Positions 1,068 through 14,762 of a DNA stretch of 64,000 nt are shown here, piece after piece. Positions within the stretch are counted from its first letter, which is position 1. Every line of letters starts with the position of its first letter. The stretch comes from Thioalkalivibrio sp. ALE14. GTDB lineage: Bacteria; Pseudomonadota; Gammaproteobacteria; Ectothiorhodospirales; Ectothiorhodospiraceae. A model generated the notes under the pieces. It worked only from the letters and a program-made list of their open reading frames with translations, made no database searches and was not told the DNA's origin. Made by a program: the position numbers and the translations under genes. Location of the stretch: positions 1-64,000 of the forward strand of contig NZ_AQXY01000028.1 of the NCBI RefSeq assembly GCF_000376845.1, read 5' to 3'.

Positions 1068-3179
1068 ATGGCGAGTGTAAAAAGTACCTGCTACGAGTGC
1101 GATGCCAACTGCGCGATCGACGTGCACCTCGACACGGACGGCGAGCCCGTCAAGATCGACGGTCCCGACTGCCCGCGCTGCTACGTGCAGCTGGATCGGC
1201 GCAACCACCCGGAACGCCTGCTCTACCCGCTGCGGCGGACCGGGGCGCGCGGCAGCGGCGAATTCGAGCGCATCTCCTGGGACGAGGCGCTGGACACCAT
1301 CGCCGAGCGCCTGCTCGCGACCCGCGAGGAGCACGGCGCCCCGGCGGCGGCCTTCTTCGCCGGCTACACCAAGGAGGCACGCCCGCAGCTCCAGCGTCTG
1401 GCGCACGCCTTCGGCTCGCCCAACTACCTGACCGAGAGCGGCTGCTGCTTTTCCTCCACCAAGGTGGCGGAGGAAGTGACCTTCGGCACCAAGATCAAGA
1501 CCTCCTCCACCGTGGCCTCGGATGCCACCCGCTGCCTGCTGGTGTGGTCCACCAACCCGCGCGGTTCCATCCCGCCGTTCCACCAGCACCCCCTGGCGGC
1601 GGCCCGTCCCGGCTGCGCCACCGTGGTAGTGGACCCGCGGGTGACCCCGCTGGCGGAACAGGCCGAGGTGCACCTGCAGATCCGGCCGGGCACGGACGGG
1701 GCACTGGCACTGGGCATGCACCACCTGATCTTCGAGAACGGCTGGCAGGACCAGGCCTTCCTCGACGAATGGGGCAACGGGGTGGCGGCCTTCCGCGAGT
1801 ATGTGGCCGATTTCCCGCCCGAGCGCGTCGCACGAATCTGCGGCATCGATGCCGCCGACCTGGAGCGCGCCGCCGAGCTGTACGCCACCCACGCCCCGGC
1901 GCAGATCATGCTCTCGCCCACCGCCACCGTGCAGCACTCCAACGGCTTCCAGAATCACCGCGCGGTGGTCCTGCTGGCGGCGGTCACCGGCAACATCGAC
2001 CGCGAGGGCGGCAACCGCTTCTTCAACGACAAGATCACGCCGAAGTCGATCGACCTGTTCGACCACTGCCGCGAGAACCTGCCGCCGCGCATCGGCGACG
2101 AGACCTACCCGGTGTGGACGGCCCACTGGCCGGCGGCGCAAAGCATGCTGCTGCCGGATGCCATCCTCGAGGGGCAGCCACAGCCCGTTCGCGCCCTGCT
2201 GGCGATGGGCATCAACACCGCGATGTGGCCGAACTCGAAGCGCATGGAACAGGCGCTAGGCGCCCTGGATTTCTTCGCCGCGTCGGACTTCTTCCACAAC
2301 CCGGCCACGCGCATGGCCGACATCGTGCTGCCGGCCGCCACCAGCCTGGAGCGCGCGGCGCTGATCGCCTACCCCGGCTGCAACTTCCGCGGCGAGCTGC
2401 GCTATCGCCGCCCGGCCGTCGCCCCGCGCGGCGAGGCGCGCCCGGATGGCGAGGCGTTTCTGGAGCTGGGCGTGCGTCTGGGCATGGCGGATCAGTTCTG
2501 GAACGGCGACCTGGAGGCCAGCTGGGCCGAGGCCGCCGAGGGCATACCGGAGGCCATCCGCGAACAGGTCTATAACGACCCGGACGGCGTCACCGTGTTC
2601 GCCAAGGCACTGGACGACATGCTTGCGCACGGCTTCGAGGATGGCGACCGCCAGTACCGGATCGACGGGTTTCGCACGGTCAGCGGCAAGGTGGAGTTCG
2701 ACGCCGAAGAACTGCGCGCGGCCGGGCACGACGGCCTCCCGCTCTACCGTGAACCGGCGGAGAGCCCGGTCTCCACGCCGGAGCTCGCCCGCGACTACCC
2801 GCTGGTGCTGACCAGTGGCGCGCGCCACAAGCATGCCACCCACTCGCAGCACCAGTTCCTGGAGCGCATGCGCCGGGCCATGCCCGAACCCCTGGTGGAA
2901 CTGCACCCGATTGATGCCGCCGCGCGCGGCATCGCGAACGGCGACACGGTCGAGGTGCGCTCGCCGCGCGGGCGCGTCGCATTCGTGGCCCGGGTCACGG
3001 CCCGCATCAAGCCCGGCGTGGCCCACTGCCAGCACGGCTGGAACCATGCCAACGTGAACGAACTGACCGACGACCGCTCGCTGGACCCGATCAGCGGCTT
3101 CCCCGCCTTCAAGTCGCTGCTGTGCGAGGTGGAACGCCTGCGCGCGAGCCACGAACAGCGGCTGCCGGAGGCCGGCTAG
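1068..3179 (+). CDS. Molybdopterin (bis-MGD) oxidoreductase, catalytic subunit
   Basis: This 703-residue protein belongs to the DMSO reductase (MopB) superfamily. Cysteines at about residues 8, 11, 15 and 35 (CYECDANC, then CPRC) form a likely N-terminal [4Fe-4S] site. It is followed by the usual HPERLLYPL segment. A Cys-Cys pair near residues 126-127 (ESGCCFSST) sits where the molybdenum ligand is expected. The C-terminal molybdopterin-dinucleotide-binding domain contains LTSGARHKHATHSQHQF and QHGWNHANVNELTDD. There is no Tat signal, so the enzyme is probably cytoplasmic. No electron-transfer or membrane subunit gene is adjacent, and the substrate cannot be named. An AAGGAA lies 11 bases before the ATG. 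Cofactor genes mobA, mobB and moeA lie 34 kb away. Confidence 0.85.
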   Translation: MASVKSTCYECDANCAIDVHLDTDGEPVKIDGPDCPRCYVQLDRRNHPERLLYPLRRTGARGSGEFERISWDEALDTIAERLLATREEHGAPAAAFFAGYTKEARPQLQRLAHAFGSPNYLTESGCCFSSTKVAEEVTFGTKIKTSSTVASDATRCLLVWSTNPRGSIPPFHQHPLAAARPGCATVVVDPRVTPLAEQAEVHLQIRPGTDGALALGMHHLIFENGWQDQAFLDEWGNGVAAFREYVADFPPERVARICGIDAADLERAAELYATHAPAQIMLSPTATVQHSNGFQNHRAVVLLAAVTGNIDREGGNRFFNDKITPKSIDLFDHCRENLPPRIGDETYPVWTAHWPAAQSMLLPDAILEGQPQPVRALLAMGINTAMWPNSKRMEQALGALDFFAASDFFHNPATRMADIVLPAATSLERAALIAYPGCNFRGELRYRRPAVAPRGEARPDGEAFLELGVRLGMADQFWNGDLEASWAEAAEGIPEAIREQVYNDPDGVTVFAKALDDMLAHGFEDGDRQYRIDGFRTVSGKVEFDAEELRAAGHDGLPLYREPAESPVSTPELARDYPLVLTSGARHKHATHSQHQFLERMRRAMPEPLVELHPIDAAARGIANGDTVEVRSPRGRVAFVARVTARIKPGVAHCQHGWNHANVNELTDDRSLDPISGFPAFKSLLCEVERLRASHEQRLPEAG

Positions 3180-4018
3180 TGCCGTTCGTCGGTGTCCTCC
3201 CTGAACGCCGGCACATCTTCCGGCCCGAGCCCCGGCGCGAAGTGGCGGTATCCGATGCCGCCGCCTGGCGGCTCAACCCGGACCACCGCCACATCTACGA
3301 CAAGCTACGCCTCGCCCTGGATGCCGGGCTCGCGGCGGCCCCCTGCGGCGTCGCGCCAACCGATATGGGGCTGACGGAGGATGACACCGTCTTCGTCAAG
3401 CCCATCACAAACCTGGCCGGCATGGGCCTGGATGCGCGCGCCATGCCCGTCGCCGAGGTGCCGGCCGAACCCGGCAGTTTCTGGTGCCAGCGGCTGGAGG
3501 GCACCCACACCAGCACCGACTGCTTGGTAGAAAACGGCGCGGTGCGCTGGTTCGCCCACACCCGCGGCTCGGAACAGAAGGACGCCGCGCGCCCGGTCTA
3601 CTGGGAGATCGGCGCCGCCGTACCCGAAATCGAGCCCTGGATCACCGACTGGGTGCGCCGCAACCTGGCCGGCTACAGCGGCATCTGCAACATCGAACTG
3701 ATCGGCGGCCAGCCCATCGAGGCCCACCTGCGCGGCTCCAACGGCTTCTTCGACTTCTACGGCCCGGCGTTCATCCCAGCCTGGGTCGCGCTGGCCGACG
3801 GCGAGGCGTTCACCCCGCCGCCGCCCATCCCCGGTGGCTTCGTGATCTCGGTGTTCGGCGAGGCCGACCTGCGGGATGCCGACTTCCGGGCCGCCGAGGC
3901 GGCCGGCGTGAACCTGCAGCCAGACCCGTCCACCCCGGGCCGCGCCGCCATCCTGCGCTGCCAGGACCGGGACGCCGGCTTCTCCATCTACCAGCGCATC
4001 ACCGGCCACGCCCTGTAG
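3179..4018 (+). CDS. ATP-grasp-fold protein of unknown substrate
   Basis: I place the start at the GTG that overlaps the last base of the molybdoenzyme stop codon (TAGTG), giving 279 residues. The frame is open further upstream inside the previous gene. The middle of the protein looks like an ATP-grasp nucleotide-binding fold: a K-P-x-x-N-x-x-G-M-G lysine strand (FVKPITNLAGMG), a central STDCLVENG segment, and NIELIGGQPIEAHLRGSNGF, which resembles the metal-binding N-x-E strand. ATP-grasp enzymes join a carboxylate to an amine or thiol using ATP. Here neither acid nor acceptor can be predicted. The one-base overlap implies translational coupling to the molybdoenzyme, so the two probably act together. 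The fold call rests on motif reading, not alignment. Confidence 0.65.
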   Translation: MPFVGVLPERRHIFRPEPRREVAVSDAAAWRLNPDHRHIYDKLRLALDAGLAAAPCGVAPTDMGLTEDDTVFVKPITNLAGMGLDARAMPVAEVPAEPGSFWCQRLEGTHTSTDCLVENGAVRWFAHTRGSEQKDAARPVYWEIGAAVPEIEPWITDWVRRNLAGYSGICNIELIGGQPIEAHLRGSNGFFDFYGPAFIPAWVALADGEAFTPPPPIPGGFVISVFGEADLRDADFRAAEAAGVNLQPDPSTPGRAAILRCQDRDAGFSIYQRITGHAL

Positions 4019-6696: not shown

Positions 6697-6705
6697 GTGC
6701 GCCTG

Positions 6706-6735
6706 GGTACTGTATCGCATATGCGATACAGTACC
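6706..6735. promoter_or_regulatory. Perfect 30-bp palindrome, probable TA operator
   Basis: The 30 bases form a perfect inverted repeat with no spacer. Each half is the reverse complement of GGTACTGTATCGCAT, and the centre is at 6720/6721. It lies 25 bases before the antitoxin ATG at 6760. RHH-type antitoxins commonly bind such palindromes, alone or with toxin, to repress their own operon. The sequence shows the palindrome directly. Its role as operator is inference from position. Confidence 0.75.
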
Positions 6736-6759
6736 GGGAGGTTGAGCCGGAGACGGACC

Positions 6760-7014
6760 ATGAAGAATGCGACGTTACCCGCCCTGCGGGTCAGTGATGC
6801 GTTTCGCCACCAGGTCGAGCAGGCCCTGGGCGAGGAAGAAACGCTATCGGCGTTTATCGAGGATGCCGTGCGTCACGAGATTCACCGCCGCCAGGCGCGC
6901 GCCCAATTTCTGGAGCGCGGGCTGGAATCCGCGCGTAACGCCCGGGAGACCGGTGTGTACTATCCGGCGCAATCGGTCCTGGACGAGCTCGACCAGATGT
7001 TGAGCACGAAATAG
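6760..7014 (+). CDS. Antitoxin of a type II TA module (RHH-like)
   Basis: The start is taken as the ATG at 6760, giving 84 residues. The frame is open upstream through the operator, but that region is palindromic and unlikely to be translated. The first part (LPALRVSDAFRHQVEQAL, then TLSAFIEDAVRHEI) looks like a ribbon-helix-helix DNA-binding domain. The C-terminal half, ending VYYPAQSVLDELDQML, is of the type that wraps a ParE/RelE toxin. It neutralises the product of the gene 22 bases downstream and probably represses the operon through the palindrome at 6706-6735. It resembles the YlcI/YnfO group, but that assignment is uncertain. Confidence 0.7.
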   Translation: MKNATLPALRVSDAFRHQVEQALGEEETLSAFIEDAVRHEIHRRQARAQFLERGLESARNARETGVYYPAQSVLDELDQMLSTK

Positions 7015-7036
7015 CCCGTCCACCGGAGGCTCAAGG

Positions 7037-7336
7037 ATGAGTTACTCGGTCCGCTTTACGGCGCAGGCACGCGACGACCTGATGCGGCTTGTCGCATTCC
7101 TGGCAGAACAGGATCCGACAGCCGCAAACCGCGCCCGCACGGCCATTGGCCAGGCCGTATCCCTACTGGAAACTTTCCCGCTGAGCTGCCGTACGCTGGA
7201 CCCCGCCCATCCCCACATCCGAGAGCTCCTGATCCCTTTTGGCCGTTCGGGCTACGTGGCCCTGTTCGAAATTGACGATGCCGAAAGGGTGACCCTCCTC
7301 GCGTTTCGTCATCAGCGCGAAGACGACTACTTCTGA
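7037..7336 (+). CDS. RelE/ParE-family toxin
   Basis: This 99-residue protein has the RelE/ParE fold signature. It starts with a strand and basic helix (YSVRFTAQARDDLMRLVAFL), has a helix rich in alanine and arginine, and ends with strands GYVALFEIDDAERVTLLAFR followed by the HQREDDYF tail usual in this family. Members either cleave mRNA in the ribosome or poison DNA gyrase. The sequence does not decide which. The gene follows its antitoxin by 22 bases, with a CCGGAGG site before the ATG. The length is normal for the family, so it could be active. Confidence 0.8.
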   Translation: MSYSVRFTAQARDDLMRLVAFLAEQDPTAANRARTAIGQAVSLLETFPLSCRTLDPAHPHIRELLIPFGRSGYVALFEIDDAERVTLLAFRHQREDDYF

Positions 7337-7392
7337 CATTTTCCTGCAGGCATACGCCATCGAAAGAACGGGGCCCTGTGGGCGGGTCCGAC

Positions 7393-7430
7393 CGATTGCC
7401 ACGGCCTCTGCGAGGCCTCGCAATGACGGG
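7393..7430 (-). repeat. REP-like repeat, single copy
   Basis: Read on the minus strand this is CCGTCATTGCGAGGCC, a short spacer, then GGCCGTGGCAATC. A near-identical unit is found at 28872-28907, and related units lie at 28737-28774 and 28821-28858. GAGGCC and GGCCGT can pair around the TCGCAGA centre. It lies between the RelE-like toxin and the 3' end of the convergent RES toxin gene. Confidence 0.65.
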
Positions 7431-7444
7431 TGTGGGTACGGCTG

Positions 7445-8191
7445 TCAGGCGGGGAGCGGCAGCCGGCCCTGGTAGTGGAACTGGGTCAGGGGGAGGTCGT
7501 GCAGGGCACCGTCGCGGGGTTTGAGGAAGCGGACGTGGTCGGCGGTGAGCTGGCACAGCCAGGCGTCCTGGCGGGTGGGCCGCAGACGGGTGAACGGGCG
7601 CGGATCGAACAGTGCCAGATTGGGGCCGCCATGCGGATCGCGGGCGGATGCGTACTCGAACAGGTCGATGTCGGTCTCGCGCAGCGCGGCACCCAGAGCC
7701 TGGGTGGCCTGATAGTCGGCGGGGTGACGCAACAGGTCCGCGTGTTCAGCGAACGGGGGCTGATGGAGCTGCAGGCCGTTAACACTCTGGTAGCGCGCGG
7801 CGAACAGGGTGTGCTGCGTGTCGAGCTTGGAGGGCGGCGGGGTCGCCATGCCGTACCAGAAAACGAAGCGGTAAAAGGCCGCCTCAGCGAGGACCGTGCG
7901 CTCGCGCAGGGCACCGTAGAACAGGCTGGGCTCGTGGCGACGGCCGAAGCGCGAACCATGGCGCAGCGGCGGATACCGAAACGGGGTCGCCAGCAGGTAG
8001 TGCAGCCGTTCCGTACCCGGGCGCAGGGGCGGCTTGGTCGCCTCCAGCATCGCCTCCAGCACGGCCTGGCGGTCGAGCGAGGAAACGAGCTGGTTGGTGG
8101 CCACCTGCTCCTGGCTCTCGACCAGACGCAGGACCTCGCCTCGCAGCGTGACGCGCGGCGCGGCCTCGATCAGCGCATTCCAGTCCGGCAT
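7445..8191 (-). CDS. RES-domain toxin (NAD-degrading family)
   Basis: This 248-residue protein carries the RES domain in the order expected. Arginine residues lie in PFRYPPLRHGSRFGRR, a glutamate follows in RERTVLAEAAFYR, and a serine lies further on in RYQSVNGL. Characterised members of the family (for example MbcT and the Pseudomonas putida Res toxin) deplete cellular NAD+ by hydrolysis or phosphorolysis. The gene follows an Xre/ParS-type antitoxin gene by 12 bases on the same strand, which is the standard antitoxin-first order of Res-Xre modules. The toxin activity is inferred from family and context. Confidence 0.85.
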   Translation of the reverse strand: MPDWNALIEAAPRVTLRGEVLRLVESQEQVATNQLVSSLDRQAVLEAMLEATKPPLRPGTERLHYLLATPFRYPPLRHGSRFGRRHEPSLFYGALRERTVLAEAAFYRFVFWYGMATPPPSKLDTQHTLFAARYQSVNGLQLHQPPFAEHADLLRHPADYQATQALGAALRETDIDLFEYASARDPHGGPNLALFDPRPFTRLRPTRQDAWLCQLTADHVRFLKPRDGALHDLPLTQFHYQGRLPLPA

Positions 8192-8203
8192 GTCAGCCCC
8201 GCC

Positions 8204-8563
8204 TCACAGCTTGCCGCGGATGGCGTCGAGATACTCAAGCACGCCCACCAGCCCCTGCACCGTGCGGATCTGCTCGGCCGGCACACCGCCGGTGTGATGA
8301 TTCGGCGTGTGCATCCAGTGCTTCATGGCCGCGGCATCCCCACCGGTCAGAACGTACAGGGCGCGATAGCAGCGGATCAACAACAGTGCCAGTTCGCCCG
8401 GCTTGCTGGACGGATCGATATTGCCGCGGCTGATGTCCGTGCGCCCGCGCCCGACGACCTGACCCAGCTCCGCCTGGGTCAGACCCAGCGCCTTCCCGGC
8501 ATTGACCAGCGCCTCGCGCAGGATATCGGCGCGTTCCGGAGCCAGGGCTTCCGCAGCGTTCAT
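8204..8563 (-). CDS. Xre-type antitoxin with toxin-binding C-terminal domain (MbcA/ParS family)
   Basis: The start chosen at 8563 has GGAGG eight bases upstream and gives 119 residues. The N-terminal half contains a helix-turn-helix segment (LGLTQAELGQVVGRGRTDIS). The C-terminal half (HWMHTPNHHTGGVPAEQIRT followed by GLVGVLEYLDAIRG) is the domain with which this family blocks the RES toxin. It is therefore the partner of the gene immediately downstream and probably represses the pair. An imperfect inverted repeat, GCACATT/AATTGTGC, with a TACAAT on the minus strand, lies at about 8590-8612. It may be promoter and operator together, but the match is weak. Confidence 0.8.
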   Translation of the reverse strand: MNAAEALAPERADILREALVNAGKALGLTQAELGQVVGRGRTDISRGNIDPSSKPGELALLLIRCYRALYVLTGGDAAAMKHWMHTPNHHTGGVPAEQIRTVQGLVGVLEYLDAIRGKL

Positions 8564-8789
8564 GGCGCACCTCCAAGTCAGTGCATATCGCACATTGTAC
8601 TATTAATTGTGCAAACCGAACATTCTGTTTCCACATCACCGCCCTCCGGCCAGCACGCGGAAGTTCGGACCTGTGCCGCCCGGTTGACGCGCCCACGGGC
8701 CCGCATAACCGCACTCGGGTGCTACGATCGGCCCAGTCCATTTGCACAAGGCCCGTGTCCTTCGGGCCCATCCCACTGGAGGGGACGCC

Positions 8790-9116: not shown

Positions 9117-9541
9117 ACCCGACCGCACCGGCACAGCCCGTGACCATGGCGCCAGCCGTGGCCGCGCCGGAACAGCGCGACGGGACCTGGTACGTCTACC
9201 TGCTGGAGTGCCGGGGCGGTCGCATCTACACCGGGATCACGCCGCAGCTGGCGGCGCGCATGGCCGCCCATGCCGCCGGCCGCGGGGCCCGCTTCACCCG
9301 CATGCACCGGCCCGTGCAGCTACTGGCGGCCCGGGGCTTTGCCTCGCGCAACGAGGCCTTGCGGGAGGAACACCGGATCAAGCAGACCTCGCCGCGGGCC
9401 AAGCGAGCCCTGGCCCTCCAGTGGGCCCGGGAGGCCGCCATCGACCGGTCCCCTGGCACCGGGATTACTCCGCCGGGCGCCGCCGCGACTCCTGGAACTG
9501 GCGCTGCACCGACTCGGACGGACCGCCGGTCAGCAGGCTGA
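9113..9541 (+). CDS. GIY-YIG domain protein (UPF0213/YhbQ-like)
   Basis: The domain runs from about residue 24 to 105 and opens with WYVYLLECRGGRIYTGIT, in which YVY and IYTGIT correspond to GIY and YIG. R-M-x-x-H and the EHRIKQ segment supply the usual arginine, histidine and glutamate positions. Small single-domain members are uncharacterised nucleases or DNA-repair-linked proteins. The GTG start overlaps the upstream stop; an ATG at 9146 is an alternative. The last 40 residues are a low-complexity Pro/Ala/Thr tail, unlike the compact family. This tail overlaps the 3' end of the convergent putP gene by 77 bases, so a late frameshift or lost stop is possible. Confidence 0.75.
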   Translation: MNPTAPAQPVTMAPAVAAPEQRDGTWYVYLLECRGGRIYTGITPQLAARMAAHAAGRGARFTRMHRPVQLLAARGFASRNEALREEHRIKQTSPRAKRALALQWAREAAIDRSPGTGITPPGAAATPGTGAAPTRTDRRSAG

Positions 9542-10940
9542 CGACGACGATGGCCACAGTGGCGAAGATGAAGCCGGGCAGCAGCTCGTAGACGTCGAAC
9601 AGGCCACCTTCGGCCTGATTCCAGAGGATCACGGTGACCGCGCCGACCACCATTCCCGCCAGTGCCCCGTTGCGCGTCATCCGCGACCAGTACAGCGCCA
9701 GGATGATCACCGGGCCGAAGGCCGCGCCGAACCCGCCCCAGGCGTAGGCCACCAGATCCAGCACCCCGGCCTCCGGCGCCATGGCCAGCAGCAGCGCGAT
9801 CAGCGAGACCCCCAGCACCGCGGCACGGCTGATCCACACCAGCTCGGTTGCCCCGGCCTCGCTGCGCAGGATGCCGCGATAGAAGTCGTTGGTGATGGCA
9901 CTGGCGGAGACGATCAGTTGCGAGTCGATGGTGCTCATGATCGCGGCGAGGATCGCCGCCATCAGGATGCCCGCCACCCAGGGGTTGAACAGCGCGCGGA
10001 TCAGCTCGATCAGCACGGTCTCGCCGTCAGCCAGCGGGGCGTCGGCAAAGTAGGCGATCCCCATGTAACCGGTGGCCACCGCGCCGATCAGGGCCAGGAC
10101 CATCCAGGTCATGCCGATCAACGTGGCACGCGGTACATCCCGTTCAGAGCGCAGCGCCATGAAGCGCGCCAGGATATGCGGCTGACCGAAATAGCCCAGA
10201 CCCCAGGCCAGCAGGGAGAGCATGCCAAGGAAGGTCATACCCTGGAGCACCTGGGCATGCGTCGGGTCCACGGCGGCGACCTCGCTCTGCACGCTGCCCC
10301 AGCCACCGACCAGCACCACCGCGAACATCGGTACCACCAGCAGCGTCAGGAACATCAGGATGCCCTGGAGGAAGTCGGTCCAGCTGACCGCCAGAAAGCC
10401 GCCGAGGAAGGTGTAACTGATAATCACGATGGCGCCGACCCACACCGCGGTCTCGTAGTCCATGCCGAACGAGCTCTGGAACAGCAGCCCGCCACCGACC
10501 AGACCGGCCGAGATGTAGAGCGTAAAGAACACCAGGATCACGATCGCGGAGACCACCCGCAGGATGCGCGTGCGGTCCTCGAAGCGGTTCTCGAGGAAGT
10601 CCGGGATGGTCAGCGAGTCCTTCGCAAGCTCGGTGAAGCGCCGCAAGCGCCCGGCCACGAACAGCCAGTTCAGCAGTGCCCCGACCACCAGGCCCACCCC
10701 GATCCACAACTCGGACAGCCCGGACACATAGACCGCACCGGGCAGCCCGAGCAGCAGCCACCCGCTCATGTCCGAGGCCCCGGCACTCAGCGCCGCCACC
10801 CCCGGCCCCAGGCGGCGCCCGCCGAGCACGTAGTCCGACAGCGTGGTGGTCGTGCGATAGGCCGCGATCCCGAGGATCAGCATGGCCGCCAGATAGGCGG
10901 CAAAGGTCACCAGGGTGGGCATCGGCATGTTGATATCCAT
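9465..10940 (-). CDS. putP: Sodium/proline symporter PutP
   Basis: This 491-residue protein of the sodium:solute symporter family has about 13 membrane segments. The segment ASDMSGWLLLGLPGAVYVSG is the PutP sodium and proline site in the second helix. The stretch MSTIDSQLIVSASAITNDFY is the other conserved family block. It imports proline with sodium at the inner membrane. The gene lies 132 bases downstream of putA on the same strand, so uptake and catabolism are probably expressed together. Its last 77 bases overlap the convergent GIY-YIG gene. Confidence 0.93.
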   Translation of the reverse strand: MDINMPMPTLVTFAAYLAAMLILGIAAYRTTTTLSDYVLGGRRLGPGVAALSAGASDMSGWLLLGLPGAVYVSGLSELWIGVGLVVGALLNWLFVAGRLRRFTELAKDSLTIPDFLENRFEDRTRILRVVSAIVILVFFTLYISAGLVGGGLLFQSSFGMDYETAVWVGAIVIISYTFLGGFLAVSWTDFLQGILMFLTLLVVPMFAVVLVGGWGSVQSEVAAVDPTHAQVLQGMTFLGMLSLLAWGLGYFGQPHILARFMALRSERDVPRATLIGMTWMVLALIGAVATGYMGIAYFADAPLADGETVLIELIRALFNPWVAGILMAAILAAIMSTIDSQLIVSASAITNDFYRGILRSEAGATELVWISRAAVLGVSLIALLLAMAPEAGVLDLVAYAWGGFGAAFGPVIILALYWSRMTRNGALAGMVVGAVTVILWNQAEGGLFDVYELLPGFIFATVAIVVVSLLTGGPSESVQRQFQESRRRPAE

Positions 10941-11072
10941 GGAGCTTCTCCTCGTATCAGGCCGATGGCCCTTGTTGTCGTGGTGCGCGGTCGCGTCTCG
11001 ATCGAGTGTAGAAGACGCCGTGCCGCCCGGCGGCCCCGGGTCGTCAGCGAAGCGTGATCCTCACGCCCACGG

Positions 11073-14000
11073 TCAGTCGGCCGCCGCCAGCAGGCTGGCG
11101 TTGCCGCCGGCGGCGGTGGTGTCGATGCACAGGTGGCGCTCGACCACGTAGCGTTCGGGCGCGATGGGGGCGGTCTCCAGCGCGACAATCGCCCCATCGC
11201 GTTGCGCCAGCGCCTGACGCAACGCACGGGTCCAGTCGCTGGCGCCGGACGCGGCCACCGCGACCAGCCCGTCCAGTGCAGCCAGCGTCTCCGGTTCCAC
11301 CGCGCCATCGACCCCCGTCACGGGCACGCCGGTCTTGTGCAGCGTGCGCGCCGTGCGGTCGGCGCCCGGGGCCACCATGACCACCGGACACCCCGCCCCC
11401 AGCGCCTGCACCGCCTGCGCCAGCGCGAGCGCCGCACCCGGCCCCAGGCACAGCACCGGGCCGCGGGGATAAAGGCTCAGGCGGTTGCTCTCGCCGGTCG
11501 GGCCCGGCAGCGTCTGCGGGCTCATGTCGAACGCCGCGGTCGCGGCCAGCGCCTTGCGCAGCAGGCCCGTGCGCTCCGGCAGTGCGCGGCGCAGTACCTC
11601 CATGCGATCCGTGCGCGCGGCCCAGTCATCGGCATCCAGCGCGTCCAGGGCCTGCTGCAGAACCTTGCGCGCGACGCCTGCGCCCCCCGGCTCCGGCGCG
11701 GCGGGTACTTCCGCGGGTGTGCCGGGCCGGCGCCCGAAACGGGTCAGGTACAGCGGCCCGCCCGCCTTCGGGCCGGTGCCGGAGAGTCCCTCGCCGCCGA
11801 ACGGCTGGGAGCCGACGATGGCGCCGATCTGGTTGCGGTTGACGTACTGGTTGCCGACCCGCAGACGCTCCACCACCTGCTGCACGCGATCATCAATGCG
11901 GGTATGCAGGCCGAAGGTCAGGCCGTAACCACGGGCATTGATGGCATCCACCACGGCGTCCAGATCCCGGGCGCGAAAGCGCGCGACATGCAGGACCGGC
12001 CCGAACACCTCGCGCTCCAGCGCCTCGATCCCCGGGAGCCTGACGATAGAGGGGGCGACGAAGCGCCCCGCCTCCGGCACCGGCAGCGACTTCACCAGCC
12101 GGCCGTTCTCCGCCTGTGCCTTCAGGTAGTCGCGGATATCCGCCTGTGCCTCGGCATCGATCACCGGGGAGACGTCGGTTGCCAGCTGCCAGGGATCGCC
12201 GATGGTCAAGGCATCCATCGCGCCCCGCAGCATCTCCATCAGGCGGTCATGGGCCTCGTCCTGCACGTAGAGCATGCGCAGCGCCGAGCAGCGCTGGCCG
12301 GCCGACTGGAAGGCGGAGGCGAGGATGTCGCGCACGGCCTGCTCGGTCAGGGCGGAGCTGTCCACGATCATCGCGTTCAACCCGCCGGTCTCGGCGATCA
12401 GCGCGGCATCCGGCCCGGCGTTGTCCGCCAGGCTGCGGTGGATCAGCTGCGCGACCTCGGTGGAACCGGTGAAGCAAACCCCGGCGATCCGTGGATCGGC
12501 GGTCAACGGCCCGCCTACGGTCGGACCATCACCCGGAAGCAGCTGCAAAGCGGTCTCCGGCAGGCCGGCCTCGCGCATCAGTTCCACCGCGCGGGTAGCG
12601 ATCAGCGGGGTCTGCTCGGCGGGCTTGGCGACTACCGTATTGCCCATCGCCAGGGCTGCGGCGACCTGACCGGTAAAGATCGCCAGCGGGAAGTTCCACG
12701 GGCTGATGCAAACGAACACCCCGCGCGGCTCAAGCTCCGCCTCCTGCGCCAGCCGCTCGGCCTCGCCGGCGTAGTAGCGCAGGAAGTCGGCCGCCTCGCG
12801 TACCTCGGCGATGCCGTCCCAGACGGTCTTGCCGGCCTCGCGATTGGCCAGGGCGATCAGCTCGGGGGCATGCGCCTCGTAGCGATCCGCGATGGCGCGC
12901 AGCAGGTCCGCCCGCGCCGCGACCGAGTGCGCCGACCAGTCGACGAATCCGGACAGCGCCGTTCCCAGCGCCTGTTCGACCTCCTCCACCGTGGCCTCGC
13001 GCACCTCACCCACCACGTCGTCCGGATTGGCGGGCGCGACCGCGTCACGGTACTCGCCCTGCGCCGCGTGGCCGGCCGCCAGCATCGGTGCAGCGCGCCA
13101 GCGGCTCTGCACGAAGGCCTCGCGCGCCTCCAGCAGCGGCAGGATGGAGGCGGGCTCGTTGACGCGGTAGCCGCGCGAGTTCTGCCGCTGCGGCCGGTAG
13201 AGATCGGCCGGGTCGCGGATGGCCGGGTTGGGAATGGCGTCGCCCAGGGCATCCAGATCGGCGAGCGGATCGCGGGCGATCTCCGCCGGCGGGATCGCGC
13301 TGTCCACCACCTGGTTGACGAAGGAGCTGTTCGCGCCGTTCTCCAGCAAGCGGCGCACGAGATAGGCCAGCAGATCGCGATGCGCGCCTACCGGGGCGTA
13401 GATACGGCAGCGGGTGCCGGCCGTGGCCTTGACGATGGCGTGCACCGACTCGCCCATGCCGTGCAGGCGCTGGAACTCGAAGCCGTCGCGGTCGTCCCCG
13501 GCCATCGCCAGGATCGCCGCACAGGTGTGCGCGTTGTGGGTCGCGAACTGCGGGTAGATGCGGTCGCGCCGGTCCAGCAGCATCTGCGCGCAGGCGATGT
13601 AGCTAACGTCGGTGTTCACCTTGCGCGTGAATACCGGGAAGTGTTCCACGCCCAGCTCCTGCGCCAGCTTGATCTCGGTATCCCAGTAGGCGCCCTTGAC
13701 CAGGCGCACCATGATCCGCCGGTCCAGGCGTTCCGCCAGCGCGTACAGCGCCTCGATCACCGGCGCCGCGCGGCGGCCGTAGGCCTGCACGACCACGCCA
13801 AAGCCCTCCCAGCCAGCCAGCTCCGGATCGGCCAGCAGGGCCTCGATCACGTCCAGCGACAGGTCCAGGCGATCCTGCTCCTCGGCGTCGATGTTGAAGC
13901 CAATCCCGGCGCGCGCGGCCTGCCGGGCGAGTTCCCGCGCCCGCGGAACCAGTTCCGCCATCACCGTCTCGCGGTGGGTGTACTCGTAGCGCGGGTGCAG

Positions 14001-14762
14001 CGCGGAGAGCTTGACCGAGATGCCGGGGCTGGAGCGCACGTCGCCCTGCGCCTGTTTCGCGATCTCGGCGATCGCCGCGGCATAGGCCTGGTGATAGCGC
14101 CGCGCATCGGCATCGGTGCGCGCGGCCTCGCCCAGCATGTCGTAGGAATAGGCATAGCCCTCGCGCTCCATCTCGCGGGCATTGCGCATCCCCTGCGCGA
14201 TCGTCTCGCCGAGCACGAACTGGCGGCCCAGCAGCTTCATCGACTGCGCCACCGCGGTGCGCACCAGCGGCTCGCCCACGCGCCGGATCAGACCGCGCAG
14301 TGCGGCGGCCGGGCGCTGCGGGTCGTCGTTCAGTACCTTGCCGGTCAGCATCAGCGCCCAGGTGGAGGTGTTCACCAGCGACGACGAGGAACGCCCGAGG
14401 TGGGCACCCCAGTCAGACGGCTCGATCTTGTCCTGGATCAGCTCGTCGATGGTCTCGGCATCCGGCACCCGCAGCAGGGCCTCGGCCAGGCACATCAGGC
14501 CGACCCCCTCCTCGGTGGACAGGCCGTACTCGGCCAGGAAGCTCTCCATCATCGACGGCGACGTCTCGGCACGAACCCGCTCGACGATCCGCGCGCCCTC
14601 GGCAGCGATGCGGGCCCGGGGCTCGGCATCCAGCCGGATGCCCGCCCGCAGCTCGCGCAGCACGGCCGCCTCGTCGGTCCGATAGGCCTCGCGGATGCGC
14701 GCGCGGTGGGGATCGAGCGCCGGGTCGATTACCGGATCCTGGCGTGCGTCGGGCTGCGTCAT
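11073..14762 (-). CDS. putA: Bifunctional proline dehydrogenase / glutamate-semialdehyde dehydrogenase PutA
   Basis: This 1229-residue enzyme oxidises proline to glutamate in two steps. The FAD-dependent proline dehydrogenase barrel covers about residues 80-530, with MVRLVKGAYWDTEIKLAQE, ATHNAHTCAA and RIYAPVGAHRDLLAYLVRRL. The NAD-dependent aldehyde dehydrogenase domain covers about 560-1020, with SPWNFPLAIFTGQVAAALAM, the base Glu791 (ETGG) and the nucleophile Cys825 (GQRCSA). A C-terminal domain ends in TTAAGGNASLLAAAD. There is no N-terminal ribbon-helix-helix, so unlike E. coli PutA this form should not repress the operon. A cupin gene precedes it by 94 bases and putP follows. Confidence 0.95.
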   Translation of the reverse strand: MTQPDARQDPVIDPALDPHRARIREAYRTDEAAVLRELRAGIRLDAEPRARIAAEGARIVERVRAETSPSMMESFLAEYGLSTEEGVGLMCLAEALLRVPDAETIDELIQDKIEPSDWGAHLGRSSSSLVNTSTWALMLTGKVLNDDPQRPAAALRGLIRRVGEPLVRTAVAQSMKLLGRQFVLGETIAQGMRNAREMEREGYAYSYDMLGEAARTDADARRYHQAYAAAIAEIAKQAQGDVRSSPGISVKLSALHPRYEYTHRETVMAELVPRARELARQAARAGIGFNIDAEEQDRLDLSLDVIEALLADPELAGWEGFGVVVQAYGRRAAPVIEALYALAERLDRRIMVRLVKGAYWDTEIKLAQELGVEHFPVFTRKVNTDVSYIACAQMLLDRRDRIYPQFATHNAHTCAAILAMAGDDRDGFEFQRLHGMGESVHAIVKATAGTRCRIYAPVGAHRDLLAYLVRRLLENGANSSFVNQVVDSAIPPAEIARDPLADLDALGDAIPNPAIRDPADLYRPQRQNSRGYRVNEPASILPLLEAREAFVQSRWRAAPMLAAGHAAQGEYRDAVAPANPDDVVGEVREATVEEVEQALGTALSGFVDWSAHSVAARADLLRAIADRYEAHAPELIALANREAGKTVWDGIAEVREAADFLRYYAGEAERLAQEAELEPRGVFVCISPWNFPLAIFTGQVAAALAMGNTVVAKPAEQTPLIATRAVELMREAGLPETALQLLPGDGPTVGGPLTADPRIAGVCFTGSTEVAQLIHRSLADNAGPDAALIAETGGLNAMIVDSSALTEQAVRDILASAFQSAGQRCSALRMLYVQDEAHDRLMEMLRGAMDALTIGDPWQLATDVSPVIDAEAQADIRDYLKAQAENGRLVKSLPVPEAGRFVAPSIVRLPGIEALEREVFGPVLHVARFRARDLDAVVDAINARGYGLTFGLHTRIDDRVQQVVERLRVGNQYVNRNQIGAIVGSQPFGGEGLSGTGPKAGGPLYLTRFGRRPGTPAEVPAAPEPGGAGVARKVLQQALDALDADDWAARTDRMEVLRRALPERTGLLRKALAATAAFDMSPQTLPGPTGESNRLSLYPRGPVLCLGPGAALALAQAVQALGAGCPVVMVAPGADRTARTLHKTGVPVTGVDGAVEPETLAALDGLVAVAASGASDWTRALRQALAQRDGAIVALETAPIAPERYVVERHLCIDTTAAGGNASLLAAAD

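Follow-up and report, generated by a model that had tools for sequence, protein, structure and literature searches.

Among the described systems closest to the one reported here is the metallopterin-dependent ergothioneine synthase MES. In its description (PMC9516567) MES appears as a cysteine-ligated enzyme of the MopB superfamily which reversibly places sulfur on trimethylhistidine, and its relationship to acetylene hydratase was drawn by the MES discoverers themselves. In this study a stretch of 64,000 nucleotides from Thioalkalivibrio sp. ALE14 (the window, always meant at its full length) was analysed, in which the gene of a molybdopterin oxidoreductase (MopB) overlaps the gene of a putative ligase with a predicted ATP-grasp fold. 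The open-access literature searched contained no description of such a MopB/ATP-grasp pair, which is thus undescribed as far as these searches show. The results presented below point to a real and conserved pair of enzymes. Its genomic context ties this pair fairly strongly to the metabolism of the antioxidant ergothioneine and suggests that this metabolism includes an undescribed step.

The pair was followed in 58 relatives of the window genome (30 in the genus), in samples of 369 genomes from the class and 398 from the phylum, and in a contig scan for the ligase. Within the relatives the ligase was found in 12 genomes, all of them Thioalkalivibrio. As the same 12 of the 30 Thioalkalivibrio genomes, and none of the other 18, also carry MopB, and as the two genes adjoin in all 12 (MopB being covered only in part by locus L023), the pairing is not a matter of chance. 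The contig scan yielded 33 ligase loci from Thioalkalivibrio, Ectothiorhodospira, Thiocapsa, Thiocystis, Thiorhodococcus, Rhabdochromatium, Lamprobacter, Thiohalocapsa, Thiorhodovibrio, Thiothrix and a metagenome-assembled genome of the Chromatiaceae. The named hosts thus comprise Thioalkalivibrio, Thiothrix and purple sulfur bacteria. MopB is present in 29 of these loci; in three others (L044, L048, L060) it lies elsewhere in the genome, outside the 8 kb around the ligase, and in the remaining one (L058) the contig starts 131 bases before the ligase. Conservation across genomes had been proposed as a check by an earlier reading of the window from its sequence alone (the sequence-only reading), and in addition to the 12 genomes of the genus all 19 other ligase-bearing genomes tested (the 33 loci minus 11 Thioalkalivibrio loci, L045, L055 and L058) contain both genes. 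In the class sample a close ligase was found in six genomes and only a distant subfamily in four more, and MopB with at least 64% identity in eight of the 369, the two beyond the ligase carriers being G110 and G339. The phylum sample contained, besides the window genome (G000), a single distant ligase match. On plasmids no ligase was found, and plasmid MopBs shared at most 33% identity among the best 20 of 351 records. The pair is therefore usually inherited together and conserved in sulfur-oxidising bacteria. In one of the 12 pair genomes (G024, locus L005) the ligase is interrupted by an in-frame TAG, and in G847 (L220) the ligase is reduced to a remnant of 30 codons; in both, MopB matches over its full length.

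Genomes were scored for EgtD with TIGR03438, and matches below the cut-off were also counted unless stated otherwise. EgtD was detected in 143 genomes of the class sample (369), with 123 of the matches over the cut-off, and in 44 of the 47 ligase genomes (two repeats removed, one remnant counted). It is found in 27 of the 30 Thioalkalivibrio genomes, including 11 of the 12 with the pair. Outside the genus, 22 of 25 genomes with MopB have EgtD, the exceptions being G198, G110 and G339. The family of G110 (63 genomes), which was taken as Thiotrichaceae, has the ligase in 14 genomes, once as the 30-codon remnant. Here, EgtD is present in 13 of the 14 ligase genomes versus five of the 49 others, with a Fisher p of 1e-8 that is not corrected for the relatedness of these genomes; 13 of the 18 EgtD genomes of this family are over the cut-off, ten with and three without the ligase. 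A match to EgtB was obtained in 28 of the 30 genus genomes, in nine of them over the cut-off, and two of these nine belong to the 12 pair genomes. The window genome itself encodes EgtD, EgtC (218.6 bits, cut-off 218.65) and an EgtB/SenA-like protein on another contig. This EgtB homologue (L120, 7183-8367) scores higher with SenA (277.5 bits) than with EgtB (248.4 bits) and is below both cut-offs. Overall, the evidence that the ligase tracks ergothioneine synthesis is fairly strong.

A closer association is seen in the genus Thiothrix (g474), of which nine genomes carry the ligase or its remnant. In eight of the nine it lies within 8 kb of egtB-egtD, and in seven MopB is found in the same locus as the ligase. 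MopB, ligase, egtB and egtD follow each other in this order on one strand in L210 and L212; the same order occurs in L209, with 982 bp between ligase and egtB, and in L213 with other genes intervening. Ligase and egtB are 6.6 kb apart in L207, L220 has kept MopB, egtB and egtD beside the ligase remnant, L208 and L211 show ligase-egtB-egtD with no MopB in the stretch, and L214 is interrupted by a contig end. As egtB is preceded by an upstream element of its own in all eight loci (a copy also precedes the ligase in two, L210 and L214), the MopB-ligase and egt genes are rather neighbouring units than a proven single operon. Outside of this genus, egtB starts 5.8 kb after the ligase in Thiohalocapsa (L059). 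In L213, and in the single genome represented by L060 and L208, a DsrE-type gene stands between the ligase gene and egtB; L220 has one beside egtB. The class-V pyridoxal-phosphate gene which follows egtD in Thiothrix matches best to SufS (137.7 bits, below the cut-off of 475) and scores 48.3 bits with EgtE (below the cut-off of 400); an activity as cysteine desulfurase is doubtful, the RxGxHC motif being absent in 13 full-length rows, several of which come from the same genome, while a 14th row is cut. The sequence-only reading had left the substrate of both proteins unknown; the co-occurrence with EgtD and the clustering point to ergothioneine or hercynine.

The features of the pair are collected in Table 1. 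As had been noticed from the letters alone, the two frames overlap at TAGTG; the MopB frame is intact. The overlap amounts to one base between the TAG of MopB (3177-3179) and the GTG of the ligase (3179-3181), and a GGAGG at 3167-3171, seven bases 5' of this GTG, was judged by eye to be a ribosome-binding site. The exact overlap is not universal, with TGA..GTG in L002 and a gap of 203 bp in L210.

Table 1. Coordinates of the MopB/ligase pair and its elements in the window.
Feature	Positions	Strand	Details
MopB open reading frame	1068..3179	+	703 amino acids (aa); dimethyl sulfoxide (DMSO) reductase superfamily, bis-molybdopterin guanine dinucleotide (bis-MGD) type; one Fe4S4 motif
MopB Fe4S4 cysteines C8, C11, C15, C35 and Asp12 (CYECDANC...C35)	1089..1172	+	alignment
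Cys126-Cys127 codons of MopB	1443..1448	+	alignment to acetylene hydratase
GGAGG ribosome-binding-like site and TAGTG stop/start overlap	3167..3181	+	by eye
Protein with predicted ATP-grasp fold	3179..4018	+	279 aa; conserved K42, K74, E173, E181, H183, R185, N188

The identification of the first protein as a molybdopterin oxidoreductase was borne out by the Pfam domains Molybdopterin (2.9e-45) and Molydop_binding (1.3e-30). No Tat-like N-terminus was seen by eye. Its best match in the PDB is acetylene hydratase (2e7z, 2e-70; the next match has 1.9e-50), with 28.9% identity over the stretch compared. Asp12 aligns with Asp13 of acetylene hydratase and Cys127 with Cys141, which we take to be the tungsten ligand, so that the Cys-Cys pair which had been placed at the probable metal-ligand position corresponds to Cys126-Cys127. 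The columns of Ile142 and Trp179, presumably the active-site ring residues of acetylene hydratase, hold F128 and S167. In an alignment of 34 rows of the MopB family, CYECDANC and GCC do not vary in any row that covers them, although up to three rows may be gaps. Cys126 is kept across the family, whereas acetylene hydratase has Met and the outgroups L083-L085 have Leu, Leu and Met at this position; as judged from the alignment, Cys126 beside the putative ligand Cys127 is a family-specific feature. The outgroup MopBs, which are putatively PadB-like from their context, share 34-36% identity and have His at the Asp12 position. The signature of formate dehydrogenases (a Cys/Sec-His pair and RGQNN) is absent from MopB, which has C127-F128 and no RGQNN aligned to 7qv7. 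When the protein was placed in a MopB tree of 16 rows, as the sequence-only reading had advised, its family formed a separate clade (support 100/100, stem 1.36, long branches), with the placement of acetylene hydratase, FdhF and PsrA being unsure.

The 279-aa protein matched no Pfam, NCBIfam or PDB sequence family, none of 28 aligned members of its family matched a Pfam ATP-grasp family, and its profile gave no match with PDB ATP-grasp and PurK profiles. A structure predicted from these 28 sequences had a mean predicted local distance difference test (pLDDT) of 90.2 and a predicted template modelling score of 0.87. Foldseek placed biotin carboxylase, PylC, PurK and amino-acid ligases on top (best E 1.3e-9), and the top VIA match was BacD/YwfE (3vmm; Z 18.1, root-mean-square deviation 3.7, 266 residues aligned, 8% identity). 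On the basis of this model the protein is predicted to have an ATP-grasp fold, which agrees with its earlier description as ATP-grasp-like. Among 12 diverse rows, which include the distant subfamily, K42, E173, E181, H183 and R185 do not vary and K74 is replaced by Arg in three; these six residues may serve in the binding of ATP and Mg, and many aromatic residues are kept in the family. The distant subfamily (L069-L072; 31-40% identity, about 310 aa, no Pfam match) adjoins an S15/CocE-type hydrolase in two of its four loci (L069, L072) and window-type MopB in none of the four. L069 additionally has a match to a Ddl-like ATP-grasp family, and the neighbours in L070 and L071 were judged from the listing of open reading frames only. 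The distant ATP-grasp gene and the hydrolase of L069 and L072 represent a second uncharacterised cluster.

As an acetylene-hydratase-like MopB, MES, is a known ergothioneine synthase, it is proposed that ergothioneine or hercynine is the substrate of the pair, and we favour an action on top of the canonical pathway. MopB would be a cytoplasmic, Cys-ligated Mo/W bis-MGD enzyme moving or reducing sulfur at the imidazole C2 of hercynine or ergothioneine, with sulfane sulfur coming from the carriers of the cell, perhaps by way of Cys126, the neighbour of the ligand Cys127. The second protein, with a predicted ATP-grasp fold nearest to that of L-amino-acid ligases, would activate the carboxyl group of the betaine (or of a partner amino acid) and form an amide, and the product would be a conjugated ergothioneine-type thiol. 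The substrate, the reaction, the metal, the sulfur source, the order of the steps, the role of Cys126 and the product are all inferred. Of the two roles which the sequence-only reading had considered for the ligase, modification of the substrate is compatible with an L-amino-acid ligase as best structural relative, though not demonstrated by it. The link of the pair to ergothioneine is probable. That the pair is a self-contained module linked to the ergothioneine metabolism of sulfur-oxidising Gammaproteobacteria and has the proposed chemistry falls somewhat short of an even chance, and the chemistry assigned to MopB and ligase is more tentative still. It is also conceivable, albeit unlikely, that the Mo/W enzyme and the ligase build an undescribed ergothioneine-derived thiol, carboxyl-conjugated or sulfane-loaded, which would be a low-molecular-weight sulfur carrier or thiol buffer of sulfur oxidisers.

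Several findings weigh against this proposal. EgtD was not detected in three ligase genomes (G198, 94% complete; G842, 96%; G014, 67%), it is present in all 23 good Thioalkalivibrio genomes with or without the pair, and G110 and G339, both 100% complete, have full-length MopB with neither the ligase nor EgtD. The Egt genes of the window genome, and those of most others, are located away from the pair, and the clustering in Thiothrix is limited to one genus and may be one event. An EgtB-like gene stands beside EgtD in 19 of the 20 regions inspected, and in ten of the 12 pair genomes the EgtB homologues are found only below the EgtB cut-off. The likeness to MES is drawn from the published description of MES; by BLAST, acetylene hydratase scores 352-377 bits with L083-L085 versus 247 with the window MopB; and the predicted model of MopB was poor (pLDDT 46). 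As EgtB-like genes are so regularly present and a desulfurase is absent, MopB is regarded as acting in addition to the canonical pathway; that it simply replaces a missing trimethylhistidine sulfurase was rejected on account of the EgtB-like genes.

It is unlikely that the pair is unrelated to ergothioneine and performs another chemistry, such as an acetylene-hydratase-like hydration or a side reaction of sulfur oxidation, with the Egt link reflecting ancestry or chance synteny. MopB without EgtD in G110 and G339, the presence of EgtD in the good genus genomes irrespective of the pair and the match of Asp12 and Cys127 to acetylene hydratase would all fit with this idea, but the contrast within the Thiotrichaceae, the clustering in Thiothrix and the position of egtB in Thiohalocapsa L059 do not. 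The host bacteria occur at oxic/anoxic interfaces. This habitat, together with the DsrE-type gene beside egtB in the Thiothrix loci named above, would suit a MopB that acts under anoxia as an O2-independent ergothioneine synthase parallel to EgtB, fed by a sulfane carrier and with the ligase as an auxiliary. Such an enzyme has a precedent in MES (PMC9516567); yet MES works without a ligase, EgtB-like genes are missing in hardly any case and the desulfurase domain is absent, which leaves this explanation decidedly on the unlikely side. A reduction by MopB of the S-oxide made by EgtB, or of ergothioneine sulfenate or sulfinate, in the manner of DMSO-reductase relatives is improbable: PMC9516567 names a sulfoxide as product of EgtB and the genes cluster with egtB in Thiothrix, whereas the ligand position of MopB holds Cys in place of the Ser used by DMSO reductase (PMC9516567), and many genomes have EgtB homologues without window-type MopB.

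Two further explanations concern the ligase. A maturation factor that modifies the cofactor or the protein of MopB could explain the tight co-occurrence and the overlap of the genes; full-length MopB is, however, kept without the ligase in G110, G339 and the remnant-bearing G847, and the loci of the distant ATP-grasp subfamily lack window-type MopB, so that such a factor is very improbable. The other role envisaged by the sequence-only reading, the making of a modified cofactor, is likewise disfavoured, since MopB persists without the ligase and the two genes are not always adjacent. For the ligase, an identity as the glutathione amide synthetase of purple sulfur bacteria was considered because the fold suits the amidation of a carboxylate and the hosts overlap with the glutathione-amide organisms given in PMC8877833. 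Residue 21 of the reductase, located by motif, served as a proxy (Glu21 standing for glutathione amide) and was read in 50 of 55 genomes (48 Glu, two Lys). Among the 18 genus genomes that lack the ligase, 14 were read and all have Glu21, as do G110 and G339, which also lack it; the two Lys come from G156 and G270, which bear the ligase. With the proxy disfavouring it, this identity is hardly credible.

The window starts at the 5' end of contig C28 of the 3.02-Mb genome, and its only features upstream of MopB are a transposase-like end (1-250) and an MFS gene that is truncated (311-853). Of this transporter gene (Pfam MFS_1) the 3' half is present, and it abuts the transposase-like end, which by eye is of the IS3 type. 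A CynX-like MFS gene is also near the pair in Ectothiorhodospira L041, and in G270 (L066) an MFS-like frame without NCBIfam match was seen by eye 5' of the pair. After the pair itself, the commonest conserved neighbours are ABC ATPases of at least two kinds, in seven of 19 loci. The partner of MopB had been called unusual, and indeed no electron-transfer subunit was seen among the inspected neighbours, most of which were judged by eye and not by family search. The ABC neighbour in Thiocapsa is closest to EgtUC by score (133.9 bits; ProX 129.9). EgtU was nevertheless rejected for the betaine-type transporter beside MopB in these loci: with the determinants Gly244 and the Y-to-F switch taken from PMC9732360, and a numbering offset derived for the alignment, the one copy aligned (L043) has Phe and Tyr in these columns. 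Further downstream, the window contains a ParE toxin with a small upstream frame and a RES-domain protein with an Xre/MbcA antitoxin (6697-8593). On the minus strand (9465-14762), a sodium:solute symporter lies beside a proline dehydrogenase/aldehyde dehydrogenase of 1229 aa, and the two probably serve the uptake and use of proline.

In 2022 the discoverers of MES called the formation of a C-S bond unprecedented among molybdenum enzymes and considered that other uncharacterised Mo enzymes may attach sulfur to heterocycles (PMC9516567). If the action on ergothioneine or hercynine is true, the pair, found in culturable sulfur bacteria and with a ligase as unusual partner, would add another such case, and it offers a concrete substrate class. 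It may also bear on the identity of the thiols that carry sulfane sulfur during the oxidation of sulfur; for Allochromatium vinosum, PMC4213376 reports an unidentified thiol. Allochromatium is not among the 33 ligase loci, and whether the scanned set included its genome was not checked.

With MES of Caldithrix abyssi (PMC9516567) the MopB described here shares the relationship to acetylene hydratase, the single Fe4S4 motif and the Cys metal ligand and, in Thiothrix only, the encoding together with the histidine methyltransferase EgtD. MES is, however, fused to a cysteine desulfurase, whereas MopB ends after the MGD domain and has an ATP-grasp partner instead, and it occurs in anaerobes without discernible EgtB, while the pair genomes possess EgtB-like genes. 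Acetylene hydratase has the equivalents of D12 and C127 in common with MopB, which differs by its long-stemmed separate clade, by F128 and S167 and by the extra Cys126. The L-amino-acid ligases BacD/YwfE, BL00235 and RizA have the same predicted fold as the ligase (VIA Z 15.6-18.1), which is much shorter, at 8-12% identity, and has ExH at the putative Mg site, where ExN is usual. With the canonical EgtB-EgtC-EgtD-EgtE pathway the pair co-occurs, being its near neighbour in Thiothrix, but unlike the pair EgtD of this pathway occurs in many genomes with neither gene.

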